From contig NZ_JAFBCF010000001.1 of assembly GCF_016907535.1 (NCBI RefSeq), forward strand, positions 3,782,001-3,846,000: 64,000 bases of DNA. The letters run 5' to 3'. Below are positions 9,398-29,212 of this stretch, piece after piece (position 1 is the first letter of the stretch; every line of letters starts with the position of its first letter). The position numbers were made by a program, and so were the translations under genes. Origin of the DNA: Microlunatus panaciterrae. Lineage in GTDB: Bacteria; Actinomycetota; Actinomycetes; Propionibacteriales; Propionibacteriaceae. The notes under the pieces are model-generated. The model was not told the origin of the DNA, searched no databases, and was given only the letters and a program-made list of their open reading frames with translations.

Positions 9398-9641
9398 CCC
9401 ATCGGCGGCGCCAGGTGCGGGTCGTCGGAGCCGTCGATACTGTGCAGCTTCATCGACGGTCGCCATATTGCGCGGAAACGATGCGGGCGCTCCTTCGCCG
9501 CTTGTGGGTGTGGGTGTTGGACGTAGAAAGATCAGTGCTGCGTGCCTCTGGGAAGGCCTGAGCGGCTGAACGCTGTCTGGTCTCTATGGGTGTGACGCCT
9601 CTCTTGTGACGCCGGGGCCAGTGCGCCGCGCAGCACGGTGG

Positions 9642-10595: not shown

Positions 10596-10689
10596 GACCA
10601 CACCTACCCCCACCAGCTCTGCTTCTTCACGCCACGCTATGCGGACAGCTGACGTCGCAGCAGGGCTGAAAGTCCTGACTTCCGACCTG

Positions 10690-11212: not shown

Positions 11213-11987
11213 TCAGAGGGGGAGCCGGAAGTTGTCTCTGATCTGGGCTGCGACGGACTGGAGAAAGGGGGCGATGCGGGGTACGTCTTCCATGGTGAGT
11301 CGACCGCTGGGACCGGAGACTGAGATGGCTGCGAGGAAGGGTAGGCCGGTGAGGGGTACGGCGACGCAGCGGACCCCCAATTCCTGCTCGCCGTCGTCCA
11401 GGGCGTAGCCGAGGTCTCGGGCCTGCGCGAGCTCGGTGAGCATGGCGTCGATGCTCACGAGGGTGTTCTCGGTCCGCGGTGGCATCCCCGTTCGAGCCAG
11501 CAGGCGCGCCGCCTGCTCGTCGCTGAGCATGGACAGGATGGCTTTGCCGACGCCGGTGCAGTGCGGCATCACGACGCGGCCGACTTCCGTGAACATGCGC
11601 ATGGACTGCGGGGAGGGGACTTGCGCCACATAGATGCAGGAGTCACCCTCGAGCATCGCCATGTTGGTCGTCTCGCCGAACTCCTCGACCGGGCTCGCCA
11701 GGTACGGTGTCGCCCACGAGCCAAGTCCGCGGCTGGCGGACTGTCCAAAGCGGATCATCCGCAGCCCGAGGGCATAACGCTTAGAGGGTTCCTGGCGTAC
11801 ATAGCCCTCGCTCATCAAGAAGCGCAGCAGCCTGTGGATGGTGGGACGGCACGTCGGTGAGTTGGGCAAGTTCGGAAAGCGACAGCGGACCGTCAGCGTC
11901 AGCGAGCCGTTCGAACAGGGTGAGGACGCGGTCGACGGACTGCACGCGCTCGGGGCTTCGGAGCTTATCGGCTTTTGCTTCCATCAT
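11213..11987 (-). pseudogene. IclR-family regulator split by a frameshift
   Basis: The N-terminal part reads from ATG 11987 with a typical IclR start (V-Q-S-V-D-R-V-L-T-L-F) and the first helices of the winged HTH, S-L-S-E-L-A-Q-L-T-D-V-P. Near 11847 the continuation P-T-I-H-R-L-L-R-F-L lies in another frame, which then runs to the stop at 11213 through a complete IclR effector domain (Y-A-L-G-L-R ... V-A-V-P-L-T ... A-A-I-S-V-S-G-P). A single-base deletion or a sequencing error in the recognition helix explains it. If real, the regulator is dead. It is divergent from the malic enzyme gene, which it probably controlled. Confidence 0.75.
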
Positions 11988-12030
11988 GCGGAAAGCATAA
12001 CCGCTCTCATCAAGGAGGAAACCTCTTGTT

Positions 12031-12047
12031 ATTCCAGAAAGCAGAAT
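12031..12047. promoter_or_regulatory. Possible IclR operator between the regulator and malic enzyme
   Basis: ATTCCAGAAAGCAGAAT has near-palindromic ends (ATTCC, and AGAAT whose complement is ATTCT) in the 105-bp divergent gap. Its size and A/T-rich ends resemble sites bound by IclR-type dimers. This is an inference from position and symmetry only. Confidence 0.35.
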
Positions 12048-12092
12048 CTAGTATCCACTACACGGAAGCAGCTTAAGATCGAGAGGAACTTC

Positions 12093-13475
12093 ATGTCACG
12101 TCCCACCCCAGGTCACGCCATCACCATGAGGGTGGCAGCCCCCGCGGGGTTCAGCGCCACTTCAGAATTGACTGCAGCTGCTGCCTCAGCGGGCGCCGAG
12201 ATCACCGCCCTCGACGTGATCGAGTCCACCCATCAGAACCTGGTGGTGGACATCACCTTCAACACCTCCGGGGAAGAGCACGCCGGTCGGGTCTCTGCTT
12301 CCGTGGACGCGCTGGACGGCTTTGAGGTGCGCAAGCTCAGCGACCGGACGTTCCTGATGCACCTGGGCGGAAAGCTATCGGTGGAGTCGAAGGTAGAGCT
12401 CCGCAACCGCGACGACCTTTCCCGGGCCTACACCCCCGGGGTGGCCCGGGTCTGCCTGGCGATCGCGGCAAATCCGGCTGACGCCCGTCGGCTGACGATC
12501 AAGCGGAACACGGTGGCTGTGGTGACCGACGGGACCGCGGTCCTCGGGCTGGGTGACATAGGTCCCGAGGCCGCGCTCCCGGTGATGGAGGGCAAGGCCG
12601 CCTTGTTCAAACGATTCGCCGACGTCGACGCGTGGCCGGTCTGCCTCGACACCACCGATACCGAGGAGATCATCATGATCGTCAAGGCGCTAGCCCCGGT
12701 CTACGGCGGGATCAACCTGGAAGATATCGCCGCACCGCGCTGTTTCGAGATTGAGCGGCGGCTGCGTGCAGAACTCGACATCCCTGTCTTCCACGACGAC
12801 CAGCACGGCACCGCCATCGTGGTCCTTGCGGCATTGATCAACGCGCTTCGCGTCGTATGCAAGAACATGCATTCGGTGAAGATTGTTGTCAATGGGGCAG
12901 GAGCGGCTGGGCACGCGATCATCCGCCTGCTGCACGCCCAGGGTGCGGCGAACATCGTGGCCTGTGACCGCTCGGGCGCGCTACACCGCGGTGCCACCTA
13001 CGCCGACGAGCACCGCCAGTGGATCGCGGACAACACTAACCCGGCGCGGCAGGACGGCAACCTCCACGATGTGCTGGTCGCCGCTGACGTGTTCATCGGT
13101 GTCTCCGGGCCAAACATCCTCGGCGCCGAGCACGTTGCGACGATGGCGGCGGGCGCGATCGTTCTGGCCCTGGCCAACCCAGATCCCGAGATCCACCCCC
13201 TTGAGGCAGCGAAGCACGCCGTAGTGGTGGCCACCGGGCGTAGTGACTTTCCCAACCAGATCAACAACGTGCTGGCCTTTCCCGGCCTGTTCCGCGGGCT
13301 TCTCGACGCCGCCGCACGTGACATCACCACCCCCATGCTCGTGGCGGCCGCCGAGGCGATCGCGGCTTGTGTCAGCGCCGACGAGCTCAACGCCAGTTAC
13401 ATCGTGCCCAGCGTCTTCGACCCGCGGGTCGCTCCGGCCGTGGCTGAGGCGGTTGTCGCCTCGGCCAGCCTCTGA
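12093..13475 (+). CDS. Malic enzyme (NAD-dependent type) with N-terminal ACT-like domain
   Basis: 460 residues. ATG 12093 follows GAGAGG at 12081-12086. Residues 1-90 resemble an ACT-like regulatory fold. The catalytic part has Y-T-P-G-V-A (catalytic Tyr113), the D-G-T-A-V-L-G-L-G-D-I-G motif, N-L-E-D-I-A-A-P and the H-D-D-Q-H-G-T-A divalent-metal site. The Rossmann loop is G-A-G-A-A-G, then S-G-P-N and L-A-N-P-D-P-E-I. It oxidatively decarboxylates malate to pyruvate in the cytoplasm. A decayed malate synthase follows and a broken IclR gene lies upstream, suggesting a former C2/C4-acid metabolism module of which this is the intact survivor. Confidence 0.92.
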   Translation: MSRPTPGHAITMRVAAPAGFSATSELTAAAASAGAEITALDVIESTHQNLVVDITFNTSGEEHAGRVSASVDALDGFEVRKLSDRTFLMHLGGKLSVESKVELRNRDDLSRAYTPGVARVCLAIAANPADARRLTIKRNTVAVVTDGTAVLGLGDIGPEAALPVMEGKAALFKRFADVDAWPVCLDTTDTEEIIMIVKALAPVYGGINLEDIAAPRCFEIERRLRAELDIPVFHDDQHGTAIVVLAALINALRVVCKNMHSVKIVVNGAGAAGHAIIRLLHAQGAANIVACDRSGALHRGATYADEHRQWIADNTNPARQDGNLHDVLVAADVFIGVSGPNILGAEHVATMAAGAIVLALANPDPEIHPLEAAKHAVVVATGRSDFPNQINNVLAFPGLFRGLLDAAARDITTPMLVAAAEAIAACVSADELNASYIVPSVFDPRVAPAVAEAVVASASL

Positions 13476-13689
13476 CCCGAACCGGCATGTCGATAGGGCT
13501 GGTTCGGCGCCGAGCGTGAGCGTAGCTTCCGCCCTTCGCGAGACCAGAGTCCTGGCGTCGGGGGTGTCCAAGACCATGGTGATGACGAGGTCGTCGTGCC
13601 GGCTCGGCCGCGCTGTTTGTGCAGTTCGAGGATCTGCCGCGGCATCTGTTTGGTGAGCACGCCCTTGGCCGCGATACGAGATTGTCCGA

Positions 13690-13835
13690 ATTCCAGGTGA
13701 GCACCGGGATATCCGCCCCAGATTGATGGAGAGCAACGGCGCCAACGCGTCGAGCTGCCGCACCCAAACGTGAACGTTCGCAGGAACAAACCCAACTTCG
13801 ACGGGGCGTGGGCGCGGGCGAAGAACCGCGGTAGT
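13690..13835 (-). mobile_element. IS1380-like transposase remnant
   Basis: Minus-strand frames give [18 protein letters not shown] and, after a frame change, V-R-Q-L-D-A-L-A-P. Together they resemble the N-terminal conserved region of IS1380-family transposases. The rest of the transposase and both inverted repeats are missing. It sits at the broken 5' edge of the malate synthase relic. The surrounding 13476-13690 region holds nothing else I can name. Confidence 0.5.
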
Positions 13836-14677
13836 GGCCGATCCGACCGCGGCATACCGCAGCCCATCTTCCTCGACCGGACGGGCGACGAGATCCACAC
13901 GTCGATGGAAGCCGGGGTGATGGTCCGCAAGGCCGAAATGAAGAACCAGCCCTGGATCAAGGCTACGAGGACAACAACGTCGACACGGGACTCGGCGCCG
14001 GCATGCACGGCCGCGCCCAGATCGGCAAGGGCATGTGGGCCATGCCGGACCTGATGGCCGATATGCTCGAGCAGAAGATCGCGCACCCCCTGGCCGGTGC
14101 CAGCACCGCCTGGGTGCCCTCGCCGACCGCCGCCGTGCTGCATGCGTTGCACTATCACCAGGTGGACGTCCGCGAGCGTCAGAACGAGCTGGCTGGACGA
14201 CGCAGAAGCTCCCTCGGCGACCTCCTGACCATCCCTTTGGCCCCCTCCACCGATTGGTCCACTTCGGAGAAACAGAAGGAACTGGACAATAACATCCAGT
14301 CGATTTTGGGCTACGTCGTCCGTTGGATAGATCAGGGCGTCGGCTGCTCCAAAGTTCCCGACATCGACGACATCGCCCTCATGGAGGACCGCGCCACGCT
14401 ACGTATCTCCAGCCAGATGGTGGCCAACTGGCTACGCCACGGGGTGGTCAGCGAGGAGCAGGTCACCCACAGCCTGCACAAGATGGCTGGGGTCGTCGAC
14501 CGGCAGAACGCCGGCGATCCGAACTACCGGTCGATGAGCGACGATCCAGGTTCGAACATTGCGTTCAACACCGCGCGTGAGTTGATCATCGAGGGCACTC
14601 GGCAGCCGAACGGTTACACCGAACCCATCCTCCATCGGCGCCGACGCGAATACAAAGCGTCCATCTCCAGCGGCTGA
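13836..14677 (+). pseudogene. glcB: Truncated, frameshifted malate synthase G
   Basis: [16 protein letters not shown] (from 13869) and, after a one-base loss near 13965, [17 protein letters not shown] then [17 protein letters not shown] are hallmark malate synthase G sequence. The C-terminus ends naturally with [14 protein letters not shown]. The N-terminal half of the enzyme is absent, cut at the IS1380-like remnant. Malate synthase condenses glyoxylate with acetyl-CoA; this copy cannot. A functional copy may exist elsewhere. Confidence 0.85.
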
Positions 14678-14785: not shown

Positions 14786-15874
14786 CTAGAGGAAGGACGT
14801 CTGCCGCTCCCACTGCTGCAGGATCGAGCTTTGGACCTCGACACCCCATCCGGGCGCGTCGGACAGGACGAACTCGCCGTCGCGGGCCACCGGGAACGGC
14901 TCGTAGACGTGCATGTCCGATGCGTCCTCGATGGTCCACTCGTGGAAGAGGCTGCACGCTGGCATCGCCGTCACCAGGTGGGCGGTGAAGATCGCAGTCA
15001 GCGACCGTCCCGAGGAGTGGGGTACGCACGGGATCCCGGCCAGATCGGCCATCTCGGCAACCTGCCGTGCGCGGGTGATACCCCCGATGTAGCCGACGTC
15101 CGGCTGGATGATGTCGACCGCGCCGTCGTTGACCAGTCGGCGCATGTTCTCGAGGGAGAACTCCTGCTCTCCGACTCCAACGAGGATGTCGAGGGTGTCG
15201 GTCACTCGCTTGGCGTTGTCGTGCTCCCAGAAGGGCACGGGCTCTTCGAAGTGCAGGTAGTCCTGGTGCTCCAGCATGCGACCCACCCGGACCGCCTGGC
15301 CGGGAGAGTAGGCGCCGTTGCCGTCGGCGCTCAGCTCGATGTCGTCGCCGAGCTCTTGGCGGAGCAGGGGCACTAGTTTCGACGTGCGTCCGTTGCTAGG
15401 TTCGGAATCGCGGCCGTTGCGCTCGCCGATCTTGATCTTGACTGCGCGGAAGCCGTGCTCGGCCACCGCCTTCACCATCCGGTCCACCTCCTGCTCCGGC
15501 GTCGTGTCGCGGCGCATGCTGGAGCCGTACAGCGGTACCAACGTCCGCGCCTTGCCTCCGAGCAGCTGGTAGACGGGCTGGCCCTTCGCCTTGCCGACCA
15601 GATCCCACAGGGCCGTGTCGACCCCGGCCAGGGCCCGGAACAGAAAGCTGCCCAACACCTTGTACTCGGCCCGGGCGCACTCCGCAGCCAGCGTCATGAC
15701 GTCGAACGGATCGCGGCCGAGGTAGTTGCGGGCGACCAGTCTGTGCAGCACCATGGCGGTGATCTGCGCCTCGGAGTGTGCAGTCTGACCGTAGCCCTCC
15801 AAGCCGTCGTCGGTGCACACCCGCACGATGCAGCCGTGACCCGAGAACGTCTCAATGGACACGATCTTGGTCAT
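14786..15874 (-). CDS. Enolase-superfamily enzyme (mandelate racemase/muconate lactonising type)
   Basis: 362 residues; GGAGG precedes the ATG. The N-terminal capping domain runs to about 115, then a barrel. Catalytic residues visible: Lys146 and Lys148 (V-K-I-K-I-G), metal ligands Asp184 (S-A-D-G-N-G), Glu210 (H-F-E-E-P) and Glu236 (G-V-G-E-Q), Asp259 (Q-P-D-V) and His286 (V-P-H-S-S-G). This is the mandelate racemase-type set (Lys plus His/Asp dyad), usual for acid-sugar dehydratases and racemases. It is the last gene of the 26.7-14.8 kb operon, so its substrate probably derives from the compound imported by the ABC system. Substrate not predictable from sequence. Confidence 0.88.
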   Translation of the reverse strand: MTKIVSIETFSGHGCIVRVCTDDGLEGYGQTAHSEAQITAMVLHRLVARNYLGRDPFDVMTLAAECARAEYKVLGSFLFRALAGVDTALWDLVGKAKGQPVYQLLGGKARTLVPLYGSSMRRDTTPEQEVDRMVKAVAEHGFRAVKIKIGERNGRDSEPSNGRTSKLVPLLRQELGDDIELSADGNGAYSPGQAVRVGRMLEHQDYLHFEEPVPFWEHDNAKRVTDTLDILVGVGEQEFSLENMRRLVNDGAVDIIQPDVGYIGGITRARQVAEMADLAGIPCVPHSSGRSLTAIFTAHLVTAMPACSLFHEWTIEDASDMHVYEPFPVARDGEFVLSDAPGWGVEVQSSILQQWERQTSFL

Positions 15875-15908: not shown

Positions 15909-17012
15909 TCACGCGGCCCGCGCGGGCAGACCGTAGAAGGCTCTGGCGTTCTCGGTGTAGATCTTGTCGCGGTGCCCCGCTGGCAGCCTGACCTGGAACG
16001 CGTGGGCCGGGTGGTCGAAGTCCCAGTGCGGGTAGTCCGTGGAGAACATGACCTTGTCCACACCACCCAGATGCTCGAAGACCTTGTGCAGGTCCGCGCT
16101 CCGGTGTGGCTCCTCGATTGGCTGCGTGGTCACCCAGAAGTGGTCGCGGATGTATTCGGATGGCTTCCGCCGCAGGTGTGGGACCTCGGACTTGAAGCGA
16201 TGCCACTGCTTGTCCATCCGCCACGCCAGGGACGGCAGCCAGGCGAAGCCCCCCTCGATCAGGGCGATCCGAAGGTCGGGGATGTGCTCGAACACGCCCC
16301 CGAACACCATGCTGGCCACATGCGCCTGGAAGGCAGCCGACATCCCCGTGTGGTCCTCGATGTAATACGAGGGCCAGCCCGCGGAGCTTATGGGAACGCC
16401 GCGGACACCTCCGCCGTAGTGGATGCCGACCGGAAGGTTGTGTCGGGTCGCCGCCTCGTACAGCTTCCAGTATTTTCGGTCGCCGAGCGGCGCCGAGCTT
16501 CTGGCGACCAGCAGCACCTGTACGAAGCCGGGGTGGCCGGCCAGCCGCTCGATCTCCGCGACAGCCTGCTCGCTGTGCTCGGCGGGGACGATCAGCCCCG
16601 CCCGCAGCCGGGGTTCGGGCTCCAGCCATTCCGCGATCTGCCAGTCGTTCGTCGCTGCCGACAACGCGGCGGCGTAGTCCGGGTCGAGCTGGCTGCCGGC
16701 CGGACTGAGGCAGCCGAGGATCCCGAACTCGACGTTGAGCGCATCCAAGTGCTGCTGCTGCATGAAGCTCAGATCGGCGCCCGGCGCCAGCCCGGATGGA
16801 GGGAACGCGTCCCACCGGGCCGGCGAACCCTTGGGGTACACCGACCCTGAGTGCTGACGGGACCCGAAGGCGCGTTGGTGCTGCAGCCATCGGTTGGGCA
16901 GGAACGGGTCGAGCGACTTTGGTGACATCACGTTGTGGATGTCACAGTCGATGATCATCTGCTTGACGCGCGGGCCGGCCTTGGCCCTGGGTTCCATGAT
17001 CGTGTCAGTCAT
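15909..17012 (-). CDS. ACMSD-like amidohydrolase family 2 protein (copy 1)
   Basis: 367 residues. Strand 1 has D22-x-D24-x-H26 (D-C-D-I-H), strand 5 has His198 in G-I-H-Y-G-G, His231 lies in F-Q-A-H, and strand 8 has Asp326 in S-T-D-Y-P-H-W-D. This is the metal-site layout of amidohydrolase_2 proteins, which include decarboxylases of carboxylated aromatics and C-C or ester hydrolases. No signal peptide, so cytoplasmic. It closely resembles the next upstream gene, implying duplication. The gap to that gene is 97 bp. The reaction is unknown; decarboxylation or hydrolysis of a ring-derived carboxylate is the family-based guess. Confidence 0.85.
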   Translation of the reverse strand: MTDTIMEPRAKAGPRVKQMIIDCDIHNVMSPKSLDPFLPNRWLQHQRAFGSRQHSGSVYPKGSPARWDAFPPSGLAPGADLSFMQQQHLDALNVEFGILGCLSPAGSQLDPDYAAALSAATNDWQIAEWLEPEPRLRAGLIVPAEHSEQAVAEIERLAGHPGFVQVLLVARSSAPLGDRKYWKLYEAATRHNLPVGIHYGGGVRGVPISSAGWPSYYIEDHTGMSAAFQAHVASMVFGGVFEHIPDLRIALIEGGFAWLPSLAWRMDKQWHRFKSEVPHLRRKPSEYIRDHFWVTTQPIEEPHRSADLHKVFEHLGGVDKVMFSTDYPHWDFDHPAHAFQVRLPAGHRDKIYTENARAFYGLPARAA

Positions 17013-17109
17013 TGTTTGGTCTCCTTTGCACTGCTCGTTGATGCGCGTGGGCCAGTCAGCACGGCAACTCCTCCGCTGCTGAGCCCAGGGGGCGGACGCC
17101 TGGCCACAC

Positions 17110-18234
17110 CTACGCCGGCTTCCGTGCCGGCAACCGGTAGAAGGCGCGTGCGTTCTCGGAGTAGATCTGCTCCTTCTGCGCTGTGGGGATCCGCTCCTGG
17201 AAGGCGTGGGTGGGTGAGTCGAAGTCCCAGTGCGGGTAGTCGGTGGAGAACATCACCTTGTCGACGCCGCCCATGTGCTCGAACACCTTGGCCAGGTCAC
17301 CGCGCCGGTGCGGCTCCTCGATGGGCTGGGTGGTGAACCAGAAATGATCACCGATGTAATCGCTGGGGCGGCGCCTCAGGGCGGGGACTTCTGAACGGAG
17401 CCGCTTCCACTGCTTGTCCAGCCGCCAGGTCAAGGACGGGAGCCACGCGAAGCCGCCCTCGATCAGGGCGATCCTCAGGTTGGGCAGCCGATCGAAGATC
17501 CCCGACAGCACCAGGCTGGTGACGTGGGCCTGGAAAGCCGTGGACATCACCGCGTGGTCCTCCAGGTAGTACGACGGCCAGCCGGCAGCGGTCACCGGCA
17601 CTCCTCGGGCCCCGCCACCGAAGTGCACGCCGACCGGTAGGTCGTGACGGGACGCCGCCTCGTAGATCTTCCAATACCTCCGATCACCCAGCGGAGCGGA
17701 GGTCCGGGCGACCAGCAGGACCTGGATGAAGGCGGGATTGTCGGCCCGGCGCTCGATCTCGCGAGCGGCCAGGTCGCCGTCCTCCATGGGCACCACGATC
17801 CCGCCGCGCAGGCGGTCGTCCTGGTCCATCCACTCGTCGACCTGCCAGTCGTTGGTGGCGCTCGCCAGGGCCGCCCCGTACTCCACGTTCAGCTGGCCCG
17901 AGGCGGCCCCGAGGCAGTTCAGGACGCCGAACTCGACGCCCATCGGGTCCAGGTGCTGCTGTTGCATGAACCCGAGGTCAGCGCCGGCCGCCAGCCCTGA
18001 CGGCGGCGACGCGTCCGCACGGGCGGCCCCCGGTGAGCCCTTGGGATACATGGCCCCCGTGTGCTGGCGGCTGCCGTAGGTGCGGTGGTGCTGCAGCCAC
18101 CGGTTGGACAGGTACGGATCCAGGGACCCGGGGGAGATCACGTTGTGGATGTCGCAGTCGATGATGGGGAACCGCGGGGTGCGGTCCTTGGCACGTCCCT
18201 CGTCCAGCACGGTGTTGGTCATGGTGTCCGTCAC
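17110..18234 (-). CDS. ACMSD-like amidohydrolase family 2 protein (copy 2)
   Basis: 374 residues, the closest paralogue of the protein encoded at 15909-17012: the same D-C-D-I-H strand 1, G-V-H-F-G-G strand 5, F-Q-A-H and S-T-D-Y-P-H-W-D motifs, and the same M-Q-Q-Q-H-L-D block. All predicted metal and catalytic residues are present. Its ATG overlaps the stop of the third copy by 4 nt (ATGA), so the two are translationally coupled and may form hetero-oligomers. Two such similar active copies in one operon suggest two successive or alternative substrates. Confidence 0.85.
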   Translation of the reverse strand: MTDTMTNTVLDEGRAKDRTPRFPIIDCDIHNVISPGSLDPYLSNRWLQHHRTYGSRQHTGAMYPKGSPGAARADASPPSGLAAGADLGFMQQQHLDPMGVEFGVLNCLGAASGQLNVEYGAALASATNDWQVDEWMDQDDRLRGGIVVPMEDGDLAAREIERRADNPAFIQVLLVARTSAPLGDRRYWKIYEAASRHDLPVGVHFGGGARGVPVTAAGWPSYYLEDHAVMSTAFQAHVTSLVLSGIFDRLPNLRIALIEGGFAWLPSLTWRLDKQWKRLRSEVPALRRRPSDYIGDHFWFTTQPIEEPHRRGDLAKVFEHMGGVDKVMFSTDYPHWDFDSPTHAFQERIPTAQKEQIYSENARAFYRLPARKPA

Positions 18235-19325
18235 TTGAACCGGTAGGTGGCGAGCGCATTGCCTGCCATGATCTTGCTCTGCAGCTCGGCCGAGAGCCCT
18301 CGTGGCATGGACTCGACCGGCTCGTCGAAGTGCGCGTGGGGGTAGTCGGTCGAGAACATCAGCATCTCGTCGCAGAGCAGCTGGTCGATGACGTCAACCA
18401 GGAACTCCGGTGTTTCGGGGTCGTCCAGTGGCTGGATGGTCATCCGGACGTGGTCGCGGATCACCTCCGATGGTGGGCGGCTCACCCAGGGGACTTCACG
18501 CCGCAGACCCTTCCAGTCCTTATCGAACCGCCACATCAGCGGCGGCAGCCAGGCGAAGCCGCCCTCGATCGTGGCCACCTTCAACTCAGGGAACTCGACG
18601 AAAACACCCTCGGCGACGAGGCTGAGCAACTGGGCCTGGAAGGCCAGCGGCACGTCGACGTAGTCCTCGATGAAGTAGGTCGGCCAGCCCACCGGGGTGA
18701 GGGGGTTGCCGCTGATCCCACCCGCCTGGATCCCGACGACCAGCCCTGCCGCCTGCGCAGCCCGATAGATGGGCCAGAAACCTCGCCGGCCCAGTGGTTC
18801 ACGGGAGCGCGAGGGCACTGTCACCTGGACGAACTCGCTGAATTGGGAGGCCCACTCCACCTCGGCGGCGGCCATGTGCGGGTTCTGCAGCGGGAGAACC
18901 GCCGATCCGCGAAGCCGGGAGTCCTGCTGCAGCCACTCCTCGAGCTGCCACCGGTTGATCGCCCGGGCCAGTGCCGCAGCCAGGTCGTCGTTGTGCACCG
19001 AGTCGACGCCGTAAGTGCAGTTCAGGACGGCGTACTGCAGCTTCCAGGGGTCGAGGAGCTGGCTGCGGAGCAGGTCGAGGTTGGAACCGGCCGGCCCCTT
19101 TTCCGGCCGTGACCCCTCTAGATAAAGGTTAGGTACGTTGGCGGGGTAGAGGTCGGACGCCAACCCACCCATCCCTGACTCGACGATGTAGTCGCGCCAG
19201 CGCAGCTCGAGGTAGGGGAACAGCGTGGAGAGGCTGTCTAGGTTGAGGTGCACGTCGGTGTCCACCAGCGGCGCACCGTCCCACTCGGCAGGGCGGGCGT
19301 AGTTACGCAGTGCGAGTGTGTCCAT
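18231..19325 (-). CDS. Divergent ACMSD-like amidohydrolase (copy 3), altered active site
   Basis: 364 residues. Same fold and the same strand-1 motif (D-T-D-V-H, residues 22-26) and strand-8 S-T-D-Y-P-H as its two paralogues. But the strand-5 His is replaced by Gln200 (G-I-Q-A-G-G), the F-Q-A-H His is Gln232 (F-Q-A-Q), and the I-E-D-H His is Tyr. Expected metal and catalytic positions are therefore lost. It may be a non-catalytic partner of the coupled copy 2 or catalyse a different reaction without the usual metal. It is read before copies 2 and 1 in the operon. Confidence 0.82.
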   Translation of the reverse strand: MDTLALRNYARPAEWDGAPLVDTDVHLNLDSLSTLFPYLELRWRDYIVESGMGGLASDLYPANVPNLYLEGSRPEKGPAGSNLDLLRSQLLDPWKLQYAVLNCTYGVDSVHNDDLAAALARAINRWQLEEWLQQDSRLRGSAVLPLQNPHMAAAEVEWASQFSEFVQVTVPSRSREPLGRRGFWPIYRAAQAAGLVVGIQAGGISGNPLTPVGWPTYFIEDYVDVPLAFQAQLLSLVAEGVFVEFPELKVATIEGGFAWLPPLMWRFDKDWKGLRREVPWVSRPPSEVIRDHVRMTIQPLDDPETPEFLVDVIDQLLCDEMLMFSTDYPHAHFDEPVESMPRGLSAELQSKIMAGNALATYRFK

Positions 19326-19427: not shown

Positions 19428-20381
19428 TCACAGGTCGAGCACCAGCCTCGGGGTCAACGAACGGGAGACACAGATCATCATCGTGTCGTTCGACGCCCGC
19501 TCGTCCTCGTCCAGGATCGAATCGCGGTGATCTGGCAGCCCGCCGAGCACCGTGGTCTGGCAGGTCCCGCACGTACCCTCCTCGCAGTTGGACAGGACGT
19601 AGATTCCCGCTTGGTCGACCACCTCGAGGATGGACATGTCCGGCGGCACCATCAGGACGGCATCGCTGTCGACCAGCTCGATCTCGAACGGTCCGTTCAG
19701 GACCGGGCCGGTGGCGGGACGTGGCGCGAACCGCTCGACGTGCAGCGTGCCCGGTGGCCAGTGGCGGCTCTTGGCCTCCACCGCGGCGATCAGCGGCTCC
19801 GGTCCGCAGCAATAGATCAGGGTGTCCGGCTCTGGGCGCCCCAGCAGACCGTCCAGATCGATCAGCCCGCACCGGTCCTGGGGCCACTCCAGCACCCGAT
19901 CCGGGTCGGCGCTCCGGAGCTCCGTTCGGTAGGCCATCGACGCCTCCGTCCGCCCCCCGTAGACCAGCCGCCAGTCGGCACCTGCCGCCCGAGCTAGCGC
20001 GATCATCGGGATGATCGGGGTGATGCCGATGCCTCCGGCGATGAAGAGGTAACGCGGCGACGGCTGCAGCTCGAAGTGGTTACGCGGGCCCGTGGCCAGC
20101 AGGACGTCACCGACCTGCACCCGCTCGCACAGGGCAGCCGAACCTCCGCGGCTCTGTGGCTCGCGGAGCACCGCGATCCGCCAGCGGCCCCGGTCGTCGG
20201 TCGATCCACACAGTGAGTACTGGCGGACCAGGTCAGGGCCCAGCTGGAGGTCGATGTGGCTGCCCGCCTGCCAACTGGGCAGGGGTCCTCCCTCGACGTT
20301 CTCCAGGACGAGCTCGGTGATTCCTGCGGCGACAGAGCGCAACGACGTCACCGTCAGCGGCGTGGTGCACTCTCCATGCAT
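19428..20381 (-). CDS. Flavin/2Fe-2S oxidoreductase (phthalate dioxygenase reductase type)
   Basis: 317 residues. FMN/FAD-binding domain with R-Q-Y-S-L-C (53-58), an NAD(P)-binding domain with G-G-I-G-I-T-P (116-122) and C-C-G-P (191-194), then a C-terminal plant-type ferredoxin domain with Cys266, Cys271, Cys274 and Cys304. This domain order is that of phthalate dioxygenase/vanillate demethylase reductases. It moves electrons from NAD(P)H through flavin to 2Fe-2S and onward to an oxygenase. It is read just after the Rieske protein gene, 15 bp apart. No oxygenase large subunit is visible in the window, so the final acceptor is unknown. Confidence 0.9.
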   Translation of the reverse strand: MHGECTTPLTVTSLRSVAAGITELVLENVEGGPLPSWQAGSHIDLQLGPDLVRQYSLCGSTDDRGRWRIAVLREPQSRGGSAALCERVQVGDVLLATGPRNHFELQPSPRYLFIAGGIGITPIIPMIALARAAGADWRLVYGGRTEASMAYRTELRSADPDRVLEWPQDRCGLIDLDGLLGRPEPDTLIYCCGPEPLIAAVEAKSRHWPPGTLHVERFAPRPATGPVLNGPFEIELVDSDAVLMVPPDMSILEVVDQAGIYVLSNCEEGTCGTCQTTVLGGLPDHRDSILDEDERASNDTMMICVSRSLTPRLVLDL

Positions 20382-20396
20382 GACTGCTCCCGGACG

Positions 20397-20843
20397 TCAG
20401 AGGTTGACGATGACGTAGTCGCGGTCGACCTCGACCTGATACGTCTCACTCGCATAGGGGCCAGGCTCGTACCCAGCGGCCGTCAACTCGGGGTTGCGGG
20501 CCAGACTCTCGCCCGACTCGACCGCAGTCGGGTAGGCGCGGACCTTCGTCTTCGCCGGATCGAACCAGGACTGGCCAGTCGCGATCTCGAACTCCCAGCC
20601 GTGCCAGGGGCAGCGGATGATTTCCCCGCGCATGATGTAGTCATACGTGCCGGGGCTGTCGGAGCGCACCAGGCCCGAGGTCACACCTTCGCACATCGGC
20701 CCCCCGGCGTGCGGGCACTGGTTGCGGATCGCGTAGTACTTCCCCTTGACGTTGAACACGCCCACTGAGCGCTGGGCGATCTGGACCACCTTCCGCTGGC
20801 CCGGTGGGATCTCGTCCACGGTGGCCACCACATACTTGGTCAA
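20397..20843 (-). CDS. Rieske 2Fe-2S ferredoxin-like protein
   Basis: 148 residues. It starts at TTG (20843), preceded by GAAGAGGAG and overlapping the upstream stop as TTGA. The Rieske ligands are Cys43-x-His45 (C-P-H-A-G-G) and Cys78-x2-His81 (C-P-W-H-G). The spacer between the two boxes is longer than in small Rieske ferredoxins, and a C-terminal extension follows (about 95-148). It lacks the mononuclear iron domain of an oxygenase alpha subunit. It is a probable electron carrier, paired with the reductase encoded next. Confidence 0.88.
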   Translation of the reverse strand: MTKYVVATVDEIPPGQRKVVQIAQRSVGVFNVKGKYYAIRNQCPHAGGPMCEGVTSGLVRSDSPGTYDYIMRGEIIRCPWHGWEFEIATGQSWFDPAKTKVRAYPTAVESGESLARNPELTAAGYEPGPYASETYQVEVDRDYVIVNL

Positions 20844-22030
20844 GGTTTGTCTCCTCTTCTCCGGACGGTCTTGCTGACCGCCTTCATCTGTGTCCTCGCC
20901 TCGCTCGGCGCGAGTTCCTCGGTATAGACGACTCCATCGGCGCCGGCCGCCTGTGCCAACTCGACGTCAGCAGGACTGCCAACGTGGACATAGGTCCACG
21001 GCGGACCTCCCCGGCCCTCCTGCGGCTCGGCCGGGCTCAAGCCCGCAACGGTGGCGCCGAGTGCGTCGGAGGCGAAAGCGTCGGCGGTGCGAGCCGTGAG
21101 GCCCAGCACGGGCCGTGTGACCGGATTCCGCCGGACCGTGGCGTGGCACAGGAAGTCGGTGAAGCGCGACCGCTCCACGAGCGGGTCCAGAGCGCGGCGG
21201 AGCGGCGACGACGCATACTGCTCCGAGAGCAGCCAGCCCACCGACACCTGCGGGGCCACCGCCTTCACCGTGCCGAACAGCTGCTGCTGCAGGCCGAGGT
21301 AGCCCTGCATCCACAACTGTTCCCAAGCAGCAATCTCGGGGAAGCGCAGCAGGATCCGGAACACCACCACGGCCGGGTTCTCCCCACCGGCCACTGCCGC
21401 GGCCGTCGGCCCGGCGGGGTCGAGCAGCTGGCGGTAGCCCTCGCGGGCCCGATCGACGTCGATGCCCTGCCGGTCGGCCTGGGCCTGGCAGAACGGGCAG
21501 AAACACGAGGGCGTGCAGTGCCGAGCTGGGTCGCCGACGGCCACAGCACTCAGGAAGTGGGTGAGTGGGGTGGCGCGGTCCAGCGCGAAGCAGATGCCGG
21601 CTACGGGGTAGTTCTTGACCTGGTCCTCGGCGATGCTCAGCCACAGGTTGCGGTAGTCGGGGTTGCGGAAGCAGGGGTCATCGCCGCGGCGACCGAACAC
21701 GTCGACCTCGAGCACGTTGACCCAGCCGGGGACCCGTCGGGCCTGGTCGGGGCCGGTCGTCTCGCTGAGGGCCGAATAGACCGCCATCTCGCGCACTGCC
21801 GCCTCTCGCAGCCACTGTTGCAGGGCGTCACCGCGGCCCACGGGTGGGCCGAGCAGTGTGTTCGCGTAGTAACGCGAGTGTGGGGTGGCGGCATAGCCGA
21901 CCGTCGACCAAGTGGTGACGAACACCGTGTCGACCCCGCCGTCCTCCCGCCAACGGTCGAGGGTCGCTCCCAGCCCACCCTTGCCGATCTCGACGCGCGG
22001 GGCGTGGATGCCAACCAGCGTCCGCGGCAT
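20840..22030 (-). CDS. Unrecognised TIM-barrel-like protein with Cys motif (paralogue B)
   Basis: 396 residues from ATG 22030, preceded by GGGAGGAGG and sharing one base with the upstream stop (TGATG). I do not recognise the family with certainty. It shares with the next upstream gene V-D/E-V-x-G-R-R-G-D-x-P-C ... N-P-D-Y-R (residues 109-127 here), a C-F-C-x2-C-Q motif (Cys176, 178, 181) and W-E-Q-L-W. These resemble uncharacterised glycosyl-hydrolase-like barrels. Cys172 adds a fourth possible ligand. No signal peptide. Its position between the importer and the redox genes implies action on the imported substrate. Confidence 0.75.
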   Translation of the reverse strand: MPRTLVGIHAPRVEIGKGGLGATLDRWREDGGVDTVFVTTWSTVGYAATPHSRYYANTLLGPPVGRGDALQQWLREAAVREMAVYSALSETTGPDQARRVPGWVNVLEVDVFGRRGDDPCFRNPDYRNLWLSIAEDQVKNYPVAGICFALDRATPLTHFLSAVAVGDPARHCTPSCFCPFCQAQADRQGIDVDRAREGYRQLLDPAGPTAAAVAGGENPAVVVFRILLRFPEIAAWEQLWMQGYLGLQQQLFGTVKAVAPQVSVGWLLSEQYASSPLRRALDPLVERSRFTDFLCHATVRRNPVTRPVLGLTARTADAFASDALGATVAGLSPAEPQEGRGGPPWTYVHVGSPADVELAQAAGADGVVYTEELAPSEARTQMKAVSKTVRRRGDKP

Positions 22031-23460
22031 CACTGTCCTCCTCCCGGCGCGATCAGGCCGTCCCGCGCGGCCCGGTCGATGGCGGCCCCGACGGCGCACA
22101 AGTTCTCCAGCCGCATCTCGTCGTACTCGCGGGACACCAGGAGACCAGCGGCACCCGCCTCGAACGCGCGATAGACGGCCTGGGACACCCCCTCGGGCGT
22201 GCTGCGAATCGGGTTGCCGTTGGTCGGCACGTCGAACCCCACCCCCGCGTACACCGGGGTGCTCCCACCCAAGCTGTGGACACAGCGGCGGACCTCGCGC
22301 CAGACATAGTTGGCCGACATGCCGCTGGTCGGCAGGTCCTGATAGGACGCCTCCCGGTCAGGGTCGTAGCCGAGCACCTCGAATAACAGGGTGCGCACCG
22401 CCGGCGGCGTCAGGTCGGAGAAGACCGTTCGGGCCAGCTGGTCGCAGACGATCTGAATTCGGACCCCGGCGATGTCGTGGTAGACGACGGGCTTGACCCA
22501 GTCGGAATACGTCGCCATCCGCGCGTAGTCCATCTCGGCCTGATAGAAGGGATCGAAGGTGACTCCGTGCCAAACGTGCCAGCCGACCCGGGCGGCCGGC
22601 TGCACGGCCTTGATCGTCCCGTACATCTCCTGGGCGCCGGAGTCCATCGCCTCGTGCCACAGCTGCTCCCAGGCGAAGACTTCGGGATACCGCAGCAGCA
22701 GCCGGACCAGCGACACGAAGGCCCCGTCCGCGGGTCGGTCGCCGCGGGCACACCGTTCGCAGAGCTCGTGTACAGCCCGAAAGCCCTGCATGGCCCGGTC
22801 GACCGAGATGCCGCGGGTGACCGCTAGCGTCTGGCAATGCTCGCAAAAGCAGCCAGGCGCCTTGAGGTTGAGGAACATTTGCGAGAGCGGCCCGCTGCGC
22901 TCCGCACCGTACTTGAAGCCCGCTAGTTGGTGGGTGGCGAAAACGTCGGTGACGGTGGCGGTCATCCAGCTTCGGTAGTCGGGGTTGTTCCAGCAGGGGA
23001 CGTCCCCCCGACGTCCGTACACGTCGACCACCAGAATCTGAGGCCAGTTGATGATGGCCCGGGCGAGGAACTCCTCGTGTCCCTCAAGCATCCGCCCGAA
23101 CACGGCCACACCCCGTTCCCGAGCAGGCTCGGCCAGCTCGTCGAAGATGTCGCGATCGGCGTAGACGGTGCCAGAGTTGTCGGCGTGCCGCAGCACGGTC
23201 GCCCGGTAGTACTCCTCGTGCGCCGGCACCCAGCGGTAGCCGAGTTCCCGGTCCTTGTTTCCGACGCCCTGACCGTGGTCAACCAGGCCTTCCGCGGGAC
23301 GGTTCTTCATGAAGTTCTGATAGGCGTGGCTGTAGACGAACACGGCATTGACATGTGCTGTCTCCTGCAGGGTGTCTAGCACATGCTCCACACCCTCATC
23401 GAAGACGCTGTGCGAACCCAGCTGCACGCCGACGAACGGCTCTGCCGACTGGTCCGCCAT
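22030..23460 (-). CDS. Unrecognised TIM-barrel-like protein with Cys motif (paralogue A)
   Basis: 476 residues. A barrel-like pattern of short hydrophobic strands (I-L-V-V-D-V-Y-G, G-F-K-Y-G) is followed by C-F-C-E-H-C-Q (Cys204, 206, 209) and an R-G-D-V-P-C-W-N-N-P-D-Y-R block around Cys156. The C-terminal G-A-A-G-L-L-V-S-R-E-Y strand resembles the end of glycoside hydrolase barrels. The three Cys plus a nearby His could bind a metal. No export signal. It is read 2 nt after the ABC permease stop, so it is part of the same operon. Two diverged copies side by side suggest a two-subunit enzyme or two related reactions. Confidence 0.75.
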   Translation of the reverse strand: MADQSAEPFVGVQLGSHSVFDEGVEHVLDTLQETAHVNAVFVYSHAYQNFMKNRPAEGLVDHGQGVGNKDRELGYRWVPAHEEYYRATVLRHADNSGTVYADRDIFDELAEPARERGVAVFGRMLEGHEEFLARAIINWPQILVVDVYGRRGDVPCWNNPDYRSWMTATVTDVFATHQLAGFKYGAERSGPLSQMFLNLKAPGCFCEHCQTLAVTRGISVDRAMQGFRAVHELCERCARGDRPADGAFVSLVRLLLRYPEVFAWEQLWHEAMDSGAQEMYGTIKAVQPAARVGWHVWHGVTFDPFYQAEMDYARMATYSDWVKPVVYHDIAGVRIQIVCDQLARTVFSDLTPPAVRTLLFEVLGYDPDREASYQDLPTSGMSANYVWREVRRCVHSLGGSTPVYAGVGFDVPTNGNPIRSTPEGVSQAVYRAFEAGAAGLLVSREYDEMRLENLCAVGAAIDRAARDGLIAPGGGQ

Positions 23461-23462
23461 GG

Positions 23463-24383
23463 CTACTTGATCCCCGTCATCGCGATGCCGCGAGTGAAGT
23501 ACTTCTGCGCGAACACGAAGACCACGACCGTCGGGATGATGGCCAGCGTCGCGCCGGCCATCAATGGGCCGTACTGCGTGCTATCGGAGGTCTGAAAGAA
23601 GGCAAGACCGACGGGGACGGTGAACTTGTCGAGATCGTTGAGGTAGATCAGCGGACCGAAGAAGTCGTTCCACACGTTGACGAAGGTGAGCACGCCCAGT
23701 GTGGCGAGGGCCGGTTTCGACAGGGGCAGGATGATGCTGGCGAAGATGCGGAAGTGGCTGGCCCCGTCGACGAGGGCCGCCTCGTCGTACTCCTTCGGGA
23801 TGGACATGAAGAACTGCCGCAGCAGGAACGTGCCGAAGGTGTTCGCGACGATGGGCGGGATGATGAGCGGGAAGTGTGTGTTGATCAGGCCGAGCTTGAC
23901 GTAGGCCGAATACAGCGGCAGCACCATCAGCATGTCGGGGATCATCAGGGAGCCGAGCAATAGGGCGAAGGCGAAGTCGCGACCCCGGAACTCCAACCTG
24001 GCAAAGCCGTAGGCGCCCAGGGCGCAGACGAAGAGCCGACCGATGATGACGAGAATCGTGATGTAGGCGCTGTTGCCGAAGAACCGGACGAACGGCAGGA
24101 TCCCGTTGTTGAACAGATAGGCGTAGTTCTCCAGGGTGAAGGGCTGCGGTATCAGCCGCGGGGTCAAGCTGATCACGTCCTCGGGCAGCTTGAACGAGCT
24201 CGACACCATCCAGATGAAGGGTCCGATAGCGATCGCTGCCATCACGACGCAGCCGAGGTAGGTGGCGGTGGATGCCGCAATCTTGCTTGGGCGCCTGCGG
24301 AGGGTGTCCTCCTGCGAGCCGGCGGGATCTGCTGCTTCCGACCCGTCGTGCTCGGTCCTCGCGATGGTCCCTTGAGCTGTCAC
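23463..24383 (-). CDS. ABC transporter permease, carbohydrate type (MalG/UgpE-like)
   Basis: 306 residues from GTG 24383, which shares GTGA with the stop of the other permease; earlier in-frame starts would overlap that gene extensively. Six transmembrane segments, and the cytoplasmic EAA loop reads E-A-A-L-V-D-G-A-S near residue 205. The C-terminus T-R-G-I-A-M-T-G-I-K is typical of MalG-type CUT1 permeases. It forms the membrane channel with the neighbouring permease. No ATPase gene is present in the locus, so a shared MsiK-type ATPase elsewhere is likely, as is usual for CUT1 importers in actinobacteria. Confidence 0.92.
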   Translation of the reverse strand: MTAQGTIARTEHDGSEAADPAGSQEDTLRRRPSKIAASTATYLGCVVMAAIAIGPFIWMVSSSFKLPEDVISLTPRLIPQPFTLENYAYLFNNGILPFVRFFGNSAYITILVIIGRLFVCALGAYGFARLEFRGRDFAFALLLGSLMIPDMLMVLPLYSAYVKLGLINTHFPLIIPPIVANTFGTFLLRQFFMSIPKEYDEAALVDGASHFRIFASIILPLSKPALATLGVLTFVNVWNDFFGPLIYLNDLDKFTVPVGLAFFQTSDSTQYGPLMAGATLAIIPTVVVFVFAQKYFTRGIAMTGIK

Positions 24384-25321
24384 TGGTAGAACACCCATCT
24401 CTTGGAGAGCCGGTTCTGGATCATCGTGATCAGCACCAGCATGGCCAGAAGGACGACAGCCATCGCCGAGGCGTACCCCATCTTGCGCAGTGTGAAGGCC
24501 TCGTACCAGAGGTGGTAGATGTAAACGTAGGTACCGTCTCCCGGTCCACCGCTGGTCATGACGAGGATGAGGGCGAAGACCTGGAACGAGCCGATCGTCT
24601 GCAGGATGGTGAGCAGGAAGATCGTGGGAGTGAGGAACGGGACCGTCACGTGCAGGAACCGAGCGAGTGGGCCCGCGCCGTCGAGTGTGGCCGCCTCGAC
24701 GAGCGACTCGGGTACGCTCTGCAATCCAGCCAGGATGACGATCATGTTGAAGCCCATGTTGGCCCAGATGGCCGTGATGATGACGGCTGCCATCGCCCAT
24801 GACCGCTCGCCCAACCAGTGTGGACCGGTGACGCCCAGTTGCCCGAGCACCCCGTTGATCACGCCGTACTGGTCACTAAACACCCACCGGCCCACGATGC
24901 CCACGGCCACGAGCGACGTCACGTACGGGAGGAAGATCAGCGCCCGGAAGACGGCCATTCCACGAAGCCGGTTGTTCACGAGGACCGCCAGTCCGATGCC
25001 CACAATGATGCCGATGGGCACGTAGCCGGCGGTGTAGATGATGGTGTTCACCAGGCTGCGCGAGAAGAGCGGATCGGCCCCGCTGAACATCTCCCGGTAG
25101 TTGTCCAGCCCGATGAAGCTCGGAGCGGTCAGGCCGTTCCAGTCCGCGAAGCTTGCCACCAGGGTGGGAATGATGGGAATCACGTTGAACAGCAGGGTGC
25201 CCAGCACGACCGGGCCGATGAACATCCACCCTCGGAGGTTTCGCCGCGACTTGCCGCGACGTGGGCGCGGACCAGGACTGGCCGACGATGCCACCTCGCC
25301 CTGCATGCCCTCAGCGATCAC
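24380..25321 (-). CDS. ABC transporter permease, carbohydrate type (MalF/UgpA-like)
   Basis: 313 residues if the GTG at 25321 is used; it shares GTGA with the stop of the binding-protein gene, the same arrangement as at the next junction. ATG 25306 is an alternative 15 nt in. An Arg/Lys-rich N-terminus precedes six transmembrane segments. The EAA loop reads E-A-A-T-L-D-G-A-G. It pairs with the MalG-like permease to import the substrate delivered by the lipoprotein. Confidence 0.92.
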   Translation of the reverse strand: MIAEGMQGEVASSASPGPRPRRGKSRRNLRGWMFIGPVVLGTLLFNVIPIIPTLVASFADWNGLTAPSFIGLDNYREMFSGADPLFSRSLVNTIIYTAGYVPIGIIVGIGLAVLVNNRLRGMAVFRALIFLPYVTSLVAVGIVGRWVFSDQYGVINGVLGQLGVTGPHWLGERSWAMAAVIITAIWANMGFNMIVILAGLQSVPESLVEAATLDGAGPLARFLHVTVPFLTPTIFLLTILQTIGSFQVFALILVMTSGGPGDGTYVYIYHLWYEAFTLRKMGYASAMAVVLLAMLVLITMIQNRLSKRWVFYQ

Positions 25322-26718
25322 TTGAGCACTTTCGTGTCCGGATCGGTGAGCGATCCCCCCTTTTCCAGCAGCGTCTTTCCCTGGCTGACGTCCCAATTGC
25401 GCTTCTTGATCTCCGCGTTCACCGCAGCCCGACCGATCTTGATGTAGTCGGCAGTCGACAGCTTGCCGCTCATCAAACCGTTAGCGTTCACACCCTCCAC
25501 AAACGAGTCCGCCAGCGCTGTGCCGATCGGGCCGCGCGGGAACGGGATGTCGACCGAACGGTCCTTGACGTTGCCCAGCGTCTCCGCCCAGACGCTCGGC
25601 GTGGTGGGGTAGGGATGGTCGGTGAAAGCCGAACCCTTGGCGACCTCGGTCAGGGCCGGCACGGCGAACTGAGCTTTGGCCATGACCTCGGAGGCGGCCT
25701 TACCGCTGAGTGCCTTCAGGGCGAGGAAGGCGGCCTGCGGATCCTTGGCCGTCTTGGGGATAACCCAGGTGCGGGCATAGTTCTTGGTCATCGCGAACAG
25801 CGGCGTCTTGGGCCAAGGCATAATGTCCCATTCGACGCTCTTGCTGATCTTCGCTCCCAGATCCATCCCCTGCCAGGTCATGGCCAGCTTCCCCGCATTG
25901 AACAGCGGCAGGAAGTCCACATCCACCGTGGGGGCGTAGCCCTCACGGATGTAGGAAACCTGCTTATCGATCGCCTCCAGGGTCTCGGGCTTCGAGTAGC
26001 CGCACTCGGTCTGCTCGGCATTGAGCGCGACGTCGCCGGCACCGTAGGCCGTGGCCTGGATCGTGTTTACCGCGAACTGCACACCGTAGACATCGGTCCG
26101 GTTGCCGGACTTCTTGGTGAGCTTCTTGACCGCGGCGTCGAACTCGTCCCAGCTCCACGCCTCGCTCCACGACGTCGGCGCGGTGAGGCCCGCGTCATTG
26201 AACAGCTTCTTGTTGTAGTAAAGAACGTTGGCGCTCATAGCCGGGGTGACGGAGAATTGGTATCCCTCGACGGCAACCTTGGTGGCGAAGCTCGGACTGT
26301 ACTTTGAGAGGTCGAAGCCCAGGCTCGGGTCGAGCATCATCTTGTCCAGCTGCAGGATCTTCCCGCTTGTCGCTAGGTCGTAGACCCGGTCATCGTCGAT
26401 CCGCTGGATGTCCGACGTCGTGCCGGAGGCGAACTGCAGCATGACGCTGGCCCAGTCGTCGCCGGGAGCCGGCTTCCAGACGATCTTGATCTTCTGCTCG
26501 TCCAGGCTCTCCTTCTGCGCGGCCGCGATCATGTCCTTGAACATCTTCTGTGCGGTCGTGTCGCCGATAGAGCTGAACGTCACCTCAGTAAAACCCTTGG
26601 GCGTCTGAGCGGAGGAGCTCGAACCGCAGGCGGACAATCCGCCGCCGAGGACGCCGGCGGCGATTCCTAGACCGCCCTGCAAAAGTCGTCGGCGCGGAAA
26701 GTGCAAACCAGACGTCAT
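25318..26718 (-). CDS. ABC transporter substrate-binding lipoprotein
   Basis: 466 residues; AAGGAG precedes the ATG. The N-terminus combines a Tat-like R-R-R-L-L-Q-G-G with a lipobox L-S-A-C (Cys31), so it is probably exported folded and lipid-anchored on the outer face of the membrane. The body is a typical family-1 extracellular binding protein, with T-F-S-S-I-G-D and Y-Y-N-K-K-L-F-N-D-A-G-L-T-A-P-T-S-W, the usual sugar-binding-protein signature. It is the first gene of the minus-strand operon and captures the substrate. The ligand need not be a sugar: downstream enzymes suggest a more complex glycoside or aromatic-linked compound. Confidence 0.92.
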   Translation of the reverse strand: MTSGLHFPRRRLLQGGLGIAAGVLGGGLSACGSSSSAQTPKGFTEVTFSSIGDTTAQKMFKDMIAAAQKESLDEQKIKIVWKPAPGDDWASVMLQFASGTTSDIQRIDDDRVYDLATSGKILQLDKMMLDPSLGFDLSKYSPSFATKVAVEGYQFSVTPAMSANVLYYNKKLFNDAGLTAPTSWSEAWSWDEFDAAVKKLTKKSGNRTDVYGVQFAVNTIQATAYGAGDVALNAEQTECGYSKPETLEAIDKQVSYIREGYAPTVDVDFLPLFNAGKLAMTWQGMDLGAKISKSVEWDIMPWPKTPLFAMTKNYARTWVIPKTAKDPQAAFLALKALSGKAASEVMAKAQFAVPALTEVAKGSAFTDHPYPTTPSVWAETLGNVKDRSVDIPFPRGPIGTALADSFVEGVNANGLMSGKLSTADYIKIGRAAVNAEIKKRNWDVSQGKTLLEKGGSLTDPDTKVLK

Positions 26719-27871: not shown

Positions 27872-29212
27872 ATGGTGCAGCAGCAAGCTCATTGGTTCGA
27901 TTCGGCAGGTCTGGGAGTGTTCCTCCACTGGGACGCGGCCAGCCAGGCCGGGTGGGAGATCTCTTGGCCCATGGTCGGTGGCGTGTTCTCGTTGCCCAAT
28001 GGTCAGCAGGTCGGCGCCGAGGAGTACCACGCGCTGAGCAGGACGTTCTCCCCAGAGAGATGGGACGCCCGTGCAGTTGCTCGGCTGCTGGTGGAGTGGG
28101 GGGCAGGGTATGCGGTGTTGACGGCTAAGCATCACAACGGCTTCGCCCTTTTCGACACGCGACTGTCCGACCATTCCATCATGCAGGCGCCATACGGCCG
28201 TGACATCGTTCGGGAGTTCGTCGAGGCACTCCGCGCCGAGGGTCTCCGTGTCGGGCTCTACTTCTCCTTGTCCGACTGGCACCACCCTGACTATCCAGCC
28301 TGGCGGGACGACATGCGGCCCTACGTTTTGGGTGAATCACCGCCCCGTCCTGATCCCGAGGCCTGGCGCCGCTACCGGACCTTTATGCACGGTCAAGTCC
28401 GCGAGCTGTTGTCAAACTACGGCCAGATCGACCTGCTGTGGTTCGACGGTCAGTGGGAGCGGACGCCGGAGGAGTGGGATGTGGATGGCCTCAATGCCAT
28501 AATTCGCCAGTTACAGCCGAACATCCTGGTGAACGATCGCCTGCCCCTTCACGGCGACTATGCAACCCCCGAACAGTTCGTCCCGAGCGTGCCGTTGGAC
28601 GGACGATGGGAGACGTGCATGACCATGAATGAGTCCTGGGGCTATAACCCCACCGATACCGACTACAAGTCCGTTGCCGAGATCCTGAGAACCCTGGTCG
28701 AAACCCGGTCGCGCGGGGGCAACCTGCTGCTCAATCTCAGCCCGACGGGGGACGGTTCGCTGCCCAGTGAACAAGTGGAGCGAATGACGGCGGTCGCTGA
28801 GTGGATGTCCAGCAACGGGGAGTCAGTCCGTGACGTCAGGCCGGGGCTGCAGCCGTGGCAGTTCTATGGTCCCTCAACGCAGTCGGGCTCGAAGACGTAC
28901 GCGTTTCTTGTGATGCATCCTGTGGACAAGGTGACGGTCCGCGGAGTGCGTACCAGCAAGGTCAGTTCAGTCACGGAACTGGCGTCTGGCCGGGAGCTGG
29001 CGTGGGGTGTTCGACTGCCTATCCTCGAGCAGCGGGTCCCCGATCCGGTCGGTGAGCTGGTGATCACCGTGCCCAAGGATGTGCTGAACCCGTACGTCAC
29101 CGTCGTCGTTATCGAGGGCGACCAGGCGTGTAGTCCCCGCGATCCGCGGGACGAGAAGCGGATACTTTCGACAGATCATGGCACGTCCGCCGACGCCGGT
29201 TCAGGTGTGTAG
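27872..29212 (+). CDS. Alpha-L-fucosidase, GH29
   Basis: 446 residues. AGGAGGGG lies 8 nt before the ATG. The GH29 hallmark segments are G-V-F-L-H-W (15-20), K-H-H-N-G-F-A-L-F (86-94) and L-L-W-F-D-G-Q-W, in which Asp192 is the expected nucleophile. N-E-S-W-G-Y and G-G-N-L-L-L-N follow. No signal peptide or anchor, so it acts inside the cell on imported fucosides. It is on the opposite strand from the ABC locus and separated from it by IS relics; whether they share a substrate is unknown. Confidence 0.92.
   Translation: MVQQQAHWFDSAGLGVFLHWDAASQAGWEISWPMVGGVFSLPNGQQVGAEEYHALSRTFSPERWDARAVARLLVEWGAGYAVLTAKHHNGFALFDTRLSDHSIMQAPYGRDIVREFVEALRAEGLRVGLYFSLSDWHHPDYPAWRDDMRPYVLGESPPRPDPEAWRRYRTFMHGQVRELLSNYGQIDLLWFDGQWERTPEEWDVDGLNAIIRQLQPNILVNDRLPLHGDYATPEQFVPSVPLDGRWETCMTMNESWGYNPTDTDYKSVAEILRTLVETRSRGGNLLLNLSPTGDGSLPSEQVERMTAVAEWMSSNGESVRDVRPGLQPWQFYGPSTQSGSKTYAFLVMHPVDKVTVRGVRTSKVSSVTELASGRELAWGVRLPILEQRVPDPVGELVITVPKDVLNPYVTVVVIEGDQACSPRDPRDEKRILSTDHGTSADAGSGV

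Follow-up and report, generated by a model that had tools for sequence, protein, structure and literature searches.

A putative catabolic operon of Microlunatus panaciterrae encoding two glycoside hydrolase-type barrels and AibH-like oxygenases

Within a 64,000-nucleotide stretch of the Microlunatus panaciterrae genome (hereafter the window), two adjacent genes encode the paralogous barrel proteins A and B, and these genes are clustered with a sugar-type ABC importer and three AibH-like genes. The cluster is probably an operon for the catabolism of a modified glycoside taken up from outside, in which A would be a zinc-braced barrel of glycoside hydrolase (GH) type and B a defunct paralog, with AibH2-like oxygenation and an exit through an enolase-superfamily enzyme.

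The gene pair and its operon

Barrel A (476 aa; 22030..23460) and barrel B (396 aa; 20840..22030) are encoded on the minus strand, as are all operon genes described below. The original prediction placed two adjacent paralogous genes at 20840-23460, with a one-base overlap and with RGDxPC, NPDYR and CFCxxCQ blocks in the same order, and each of these points is borne out. Both minus-strand ORFs are present, the TGA stop codon of A (22032-22030) shares one base with the ATG of B, which starts at 22030 (a TGATG junction), and the blocks run RGDVPC, NPDYR and CFCEHCQ in A and RGDDPC, NPDYR and CFCPFCQ in B. An alternative in-frame GTG start for B at 22033 would extend the overlap with A to four bases. 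The two proteins are 29% identical over 323 aa (BLASTP, E 5e-41), a similarity that, judged by sequence comparison, puts their paralogy far above chance. Both genes have a GC3 of 0.85, matching that of the neighbouring genes. A recent tandem duplication was considered as the origin of the pair and rejected, since the tree separates the two proteins: A groups with a barrel of Actinopolymorpha (L007; support 100/99), and B joins one of Micromonospora (L031) weakly, on a very long branch (2.63).

Upstream of the pair is an ABC importer comprising a solute-binding protein (SBP_bac_1, 25318..26718, by domain match) and two permeases, of which permease 1 (24380..25396) was identified by sequence similarity and synteny and permease 2 (BPD_transp_1, 23463..24380) has an approximate start. 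Downstream, domain matches identify a Rieske [2Fe-2S] ferredoxin with CPH...CPWH (20397..20843), a ferredoxin reductase with FAD, NAD and 2Fe-2S domains and a putative AibF-like role (19428..20381) and, beyond the three AibH-like genes, an enolase-superfamily (MR_MLE) protein resembling sugar-acid dehydratases (14786..15874). The full order reads sugar ABC importer, A, B, Rieske ferredoxin, reductase, three AibH-like genes and enolase-superfamily dehydratase, and from the shared strand and close spacing we infer a single transcript. The pair had been predicted to lie between importer and redox genes, and so it does; what escaped notice is that those redox genes are part of a dinuclear monooxygenase system of the AibH type. 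A divergent protein of the GH29 alpha-L-fucosidase family, encoded on the plus strand (27872..29212, domain match), possibly shares the function of the operon. Just past the operon, genes for malic enzyme and malate synthase occupy 11838-14677 on the plus strand, where 14003-14677 is read as the C-terminal part of malate synthase.

Predicted fold and relatives of the barrels

AlphaFold yields confident barrel models for both A (pLDDT 92) and B (pLDDT 84). The closest solved folds to the A model are Cwp19 (GHL10-type; Z 24.4) and PgaB (GH153; Z 24.3), and further matches include the GH42 structures 6lvw (Z 23.4) and 1kwg (Z 21.5) as well as 6tvk (Z 22.9), which we take to be a GH151 alpha-L-fucosidase. 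The B model retrieves the same families in its top fold comparison, with Z about 22-25 across both proteins. Structure prediction of each barrel as a monomer, a check put forward with the original prediction, thus favours its description of the pair as GH-like: GHL10/GH153, GH42 and GH151 are the closest families, and the top matches are nearly all GH-related. Identity to the best structural matches, GHL10 (PF02638; Cwp19) and GH153 (the C-terminal domain of PgaB), is about 9-13%, and identity to 6tvk is 16%, with a sequence match absent. The Thermus GH42 A4 beta-galactosidase (1kwg) resembles the barrels in its fold and in having four cysteine zinc ligands, but the barrels, 16% identical to it, lack an in-register NE acid/base motif, an evident strand-7 glutamate and the trimerisation domain.

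Neither A nor B matches any Pfam or NCBIfam model at an E threshold of 1, and the Glyco_hydro_42 profile matches none of A, B and 52 aligned relatives. GHL10 is matched weakly by 30 of these 52 relatives (best 5.7e-9), and GHL6 weakly by 17; A and B themselves give no match to either model and fall short of the curated cut-offs. A PDB sequence search with A alone as query returned chance-level matches only, and a PDB profile search gave a weak match to Cwp19 (E 0.0074). A designed repeat protein (8g8i) ranked above Cwp19 in the profile search and was discarded, its individual stretches being insignificant. Against GHL6/GH42M proteins encoded beside barrels in other genomes, the family profile reaches E 7.6e-13 with all four cysteines in register. 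Direct comparison with GH42 from the same genus is weak (E 1.6e-4 and 0.004), so that the link to GH42 runs through GHL6 as an intermediate, the 1kwg segment and the fold. The barrels align with GHL6 (PF14871)/GH42M proteins at the four cysteines, at the blocks flanking them and over the N-terminal half of the barrel, but they lack the C-terminal trimerisation-like part of these ~700-aa proteins and have conserved residues of their own. By model and profile comparison, A and B are predicted to share a fold with GHL10 and GHL6, and the family profile is homologous to theirs. A soil fucosidase matching GHL6 has been described (PMC4723247).

One scan of genome contigs returned 131 relatives, and the 80 top-ranking loci were retained. 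The relatives come from Actinomycetota, Acidobacteriota, Chloroflexota and its relatives, Pseudomonadota, Bacteroidota, Gemmatimonadota and other phyla. Some of them, mostly from Acidobacteria, carry what by eye are export-signal-like N-terminal extensions; A has none, and visual inspection of its N-terminus revealed no obvious signal peptide. A search for a full-length ortholog of B across the order, covering 293 genomes, gave matches in 31; outside the window genome these are confined to residues about 31-298 of B, and none was established as a B ortholog. In a Bacteroidota subgroup (L012 12391-13746, L086 4521-5918) the four cysteines and Glu187 are kept and D21, E22, H62, G63 and K323 are changed, possibly reflecting a different specificity. 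The barrel of L006 (genome G195; 9536-10720 and 9262-9438, minus strand) resumes in another frame past an early stop, which suggests a frameshift or a sequencing error. The barrel family is named in no paper that we found on GHL6 or on the oxygenase class, and we know of no activity for any enzyme of this subfamily. Given its spread over many phyla, its four invariant cysteines, its well-conserved active site and the absence of A and B from the searched Pfam and NCBIfam families, the barrel family is a candidate new glycoside hydrolase family.

The four-cysteine site and the active site

Four cysteines of A are invariant in 86 relatives: Cys156 of RGDVPC (22993..22995, minus strand), the first ligand of the putative zinc site, and Cys204, Cys206 and Cys209 of CFCEHC (22834..22851, minus strand), which would supply the other three. 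Alignment places at the same positions Cys120 of RGDDPC (21671..21673, minus strand) and Cys176, Cys178 and Cys181 of CFCPFC (21488..21505, minus strand) of B. One GHL6/GH42M neighbour protein aligns to 1kwg at C106/C150/C152/C155, the zinc ligands of that enzyme, and all four cysteines of the barrels, GHL6/GH42M and 1kwg stay together in a joint alignment. This GH42-type site, a feature of only a subset of GH42, is by alignment also present in the barrels. Because all four cysteines fall on the zinc ligands of the GH42 A4 beta-galactosidase in profile alignment, they probably form one structural zinc site. The two Cys-rich sites of the original prediction accordingly become parts of a single site, and of the two occupants it allowed for, a metal agrees with the GH42 mapping and a redox cluster is unlikely. 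That A and B adjoin the Rieske and reductase genes might suggest an iron-sulfur cluster or redox metal acting in that electron chain; such a role is very improbable, as the matching GH42 cysteine cluster is a stabilising, structural zinc site (PMC8573354) and the four cysteines are invariant also where the detected neighbours of a relative include neither Rieske nor oxygenase genes.

The conserved active-site set is intact in A. Its candidate acid/base, Glu187 (22900..22902, minus strand), lies shortly past the end of strand 4 (181-185) and occurs in 83 of 86 relatives (97%); D21, E22, D61-H62-G63, H295, K323, Y327, D410 and R444 are among the other conserved residues. Enzymes of clan GH-A carry their acid/base at strand 4, and the modelled position of Glu187 suits this role. 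Alignments to the GH42 profile give no clear placement of Glu187 relative to the GH42 acid/base. A nucleophilic glutamate in the style of clan GH-A was sought on strand 7 of A; none is evident, and Asp410 is found there.

B had been treated like A, but it lacks about half of the conserved set. Of the 62 columns with at least 90% conservation, B deviates at 28 and A at 6, and half of the listed conserved sites (20 of 40) are changed or missing in B, some of them as gaps because B is shorter. Among the losses (in A numbering) are D21, E22, D61-H62-G63, E187, K323 and Y327, with Asp151 of B (21578..21580, minus strand) at the position of Glu187; the four cysteines, E126, R188 and E260 are retained. 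Losing about half of the set while keeping all four cysteines marks B as a probable pseudoenzyme.

Two other assignments bear on these active sites. A may be a lyase, isomerase or transferase acting on the imported compound, its likeness to GH42/GHL6 being one of scaffold only. The missing strand-7 glutamate would fit such an enzyme, as would a polar set peculiar to the family (D21, E22, DHG 61-63, H295, K323, Y327, R444), and the GHL10 and GHL6 models themselves describe hydrolases that are hypothetical; yet almost all of the top structural matches are glycoside hydrolases or related proteins, and a highly conserved glutamate occupies the clan GH-A acid/base place, so that we regard a non-hydrolytic A as somewhat unlikely. 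B, for its part, would be active with altered specificity if Asp151 replaced Glu187, since an aspartate is able to serve as a general acid, and its ORF is intact with all four cysteines and a gene-like GC3. The change or deletion of about half of the listed sites, including the DHG loop, K323 and Y327, together with the long branch of B, makes this unlikely.

AibH-like oxygenases and the proposed pathway

AibH-type monooxygenases, a class defined by O2-dependent hydroxylation with a Mn/Fe or Fe2 cofactor, were discovered only recently, and their natural substrates are mostly unknown. The operon encodes three PF04909 proteins, AH1 to AH3, that match AibH1H2 and related oxygenase structures (E 1e-52 to 1e-90 for AibH1H2). 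The metal ligands of AibH2 are D25, H27, H211, E265, D337 and H340 (PMC10401708); all six (DHHEDH) are kept in the AibH2-like oxygenases AH2 (17110..18234) and AH3 (15909..17012), and five in AH1 (18231..19325; DHQEDH), an AibH-like protein of amidohydrolase fold with Gln for one His. With this ligand missing, AH1 is not classed among the dinuclear oxygenases; perhaps it is an AibH1-like partner. The three genes are consecutive (15909-19325), and AH2 and AH3 are 69% identical. Rieske neighbours have served to find AibH-like oxygenases (PMC10811679), and here the small Rieske gene (20397-20843) lies within three coding regions of AH1-AH3. The six ligands of AH2 and AH3 and the adjoining Rieske and reductase genes are common to the AibH1H2/SfbO dinuclear oxygenases with their Rieske protein AibG and reductase AibF (PMC10401708, PMC10811679), unlike which the present operon has three oxygenase-fold genes, a sugar-type importer and GH-like barrels. 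For four purified AibH-like oxygenases, natural substrates could not be inferred from gene neighbourhoods (PMC10811679).

In other genomes the barrel is most often accompanied by a GHL6/GH42M-type gene (~700 aa, for example L018 11446-13512), found near it at at least 33 loci, many from Kribbella, but not near A in the window. At no fewer than 24 loci, many likewise from Kribbella, the barrel and an ABC permease gene are separated by no more than 200 bp. An AibH-like oxygenase and a Rieske gene occur near the barrel at L006, L043 and L045, with a weaker pair at L033, and DHHEDH is present in the oxygenase neighbours of all four. Importer, barrel, AibH-like oxygenase and Rieske gene are combined at three loci from genomes other than that of the window, two of them in Thermomicrobiales. 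Strong AibH-like matches flank the barrel at three non-window loci against about 0.06 expected (P about 3e-5, an approximate value because the background was estimated on 99 genomes, all belonging to the window's phylum, and the loci span several phyla). Most relatives, from Kribbella, Acidobacteria and Rhizobium, have no AibH-like oxygenase detected nearby, and the barrel is therefore not dependent on such a neighbour. Their lack of such neighbours would also be expected if barrels and oxygenases were simply adjacent, two unrelated functions on one transcript; this is quite unlikely, considering the recurrence of the full combination at three other loci where about 0.06 is expected by chance and the uninterrupted row permease-permease-barrel-oxygenase-Rieske at L045.

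In the catabolic reading that we favour, the ABC importer would bring in a glycoside or modified sugar, on which A would act as a cytoplasmic GH-type barrel belonging to the GH42/GHL6/GHL10 superfamily; it would have a single structural four-cysteine zinc site and Glu187 as the likely general acid/base. B, a catalytically defunct paralog with a zinc-braced scaffold, would most likely bind A or the substrate of A. The AibH2-like dinuclear oxygenases may oxidise the imported compound at a C-H bond, by hydroxylation or oxidative dealkylation, with electrons passing from NADH through the reductase and the Rieske ferredoxin, and the product would enter sugar-acid metabolism via the enolase-superfamily enzyme. 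A more specific and decidedly tentative proposal is that A and B form a hetero-oligomer of an active and an inactive zinc-braced barrel, which, acting in series with Mn/Fe monooxygenases of the AibH type, would cleave an imported modified sugar oxidatively. If this were true, orphan AibH-class oxygenases would gain a carbohydrate substrate. The joint presence of a sugar importer, sugar-enzyme barrels and AibH-like oxygenases hints at what these oxygenases act on: the operon and its partial repeats in three other genomes point to imported sugars or glycosides, and would give a concrete list of compounds for testing.
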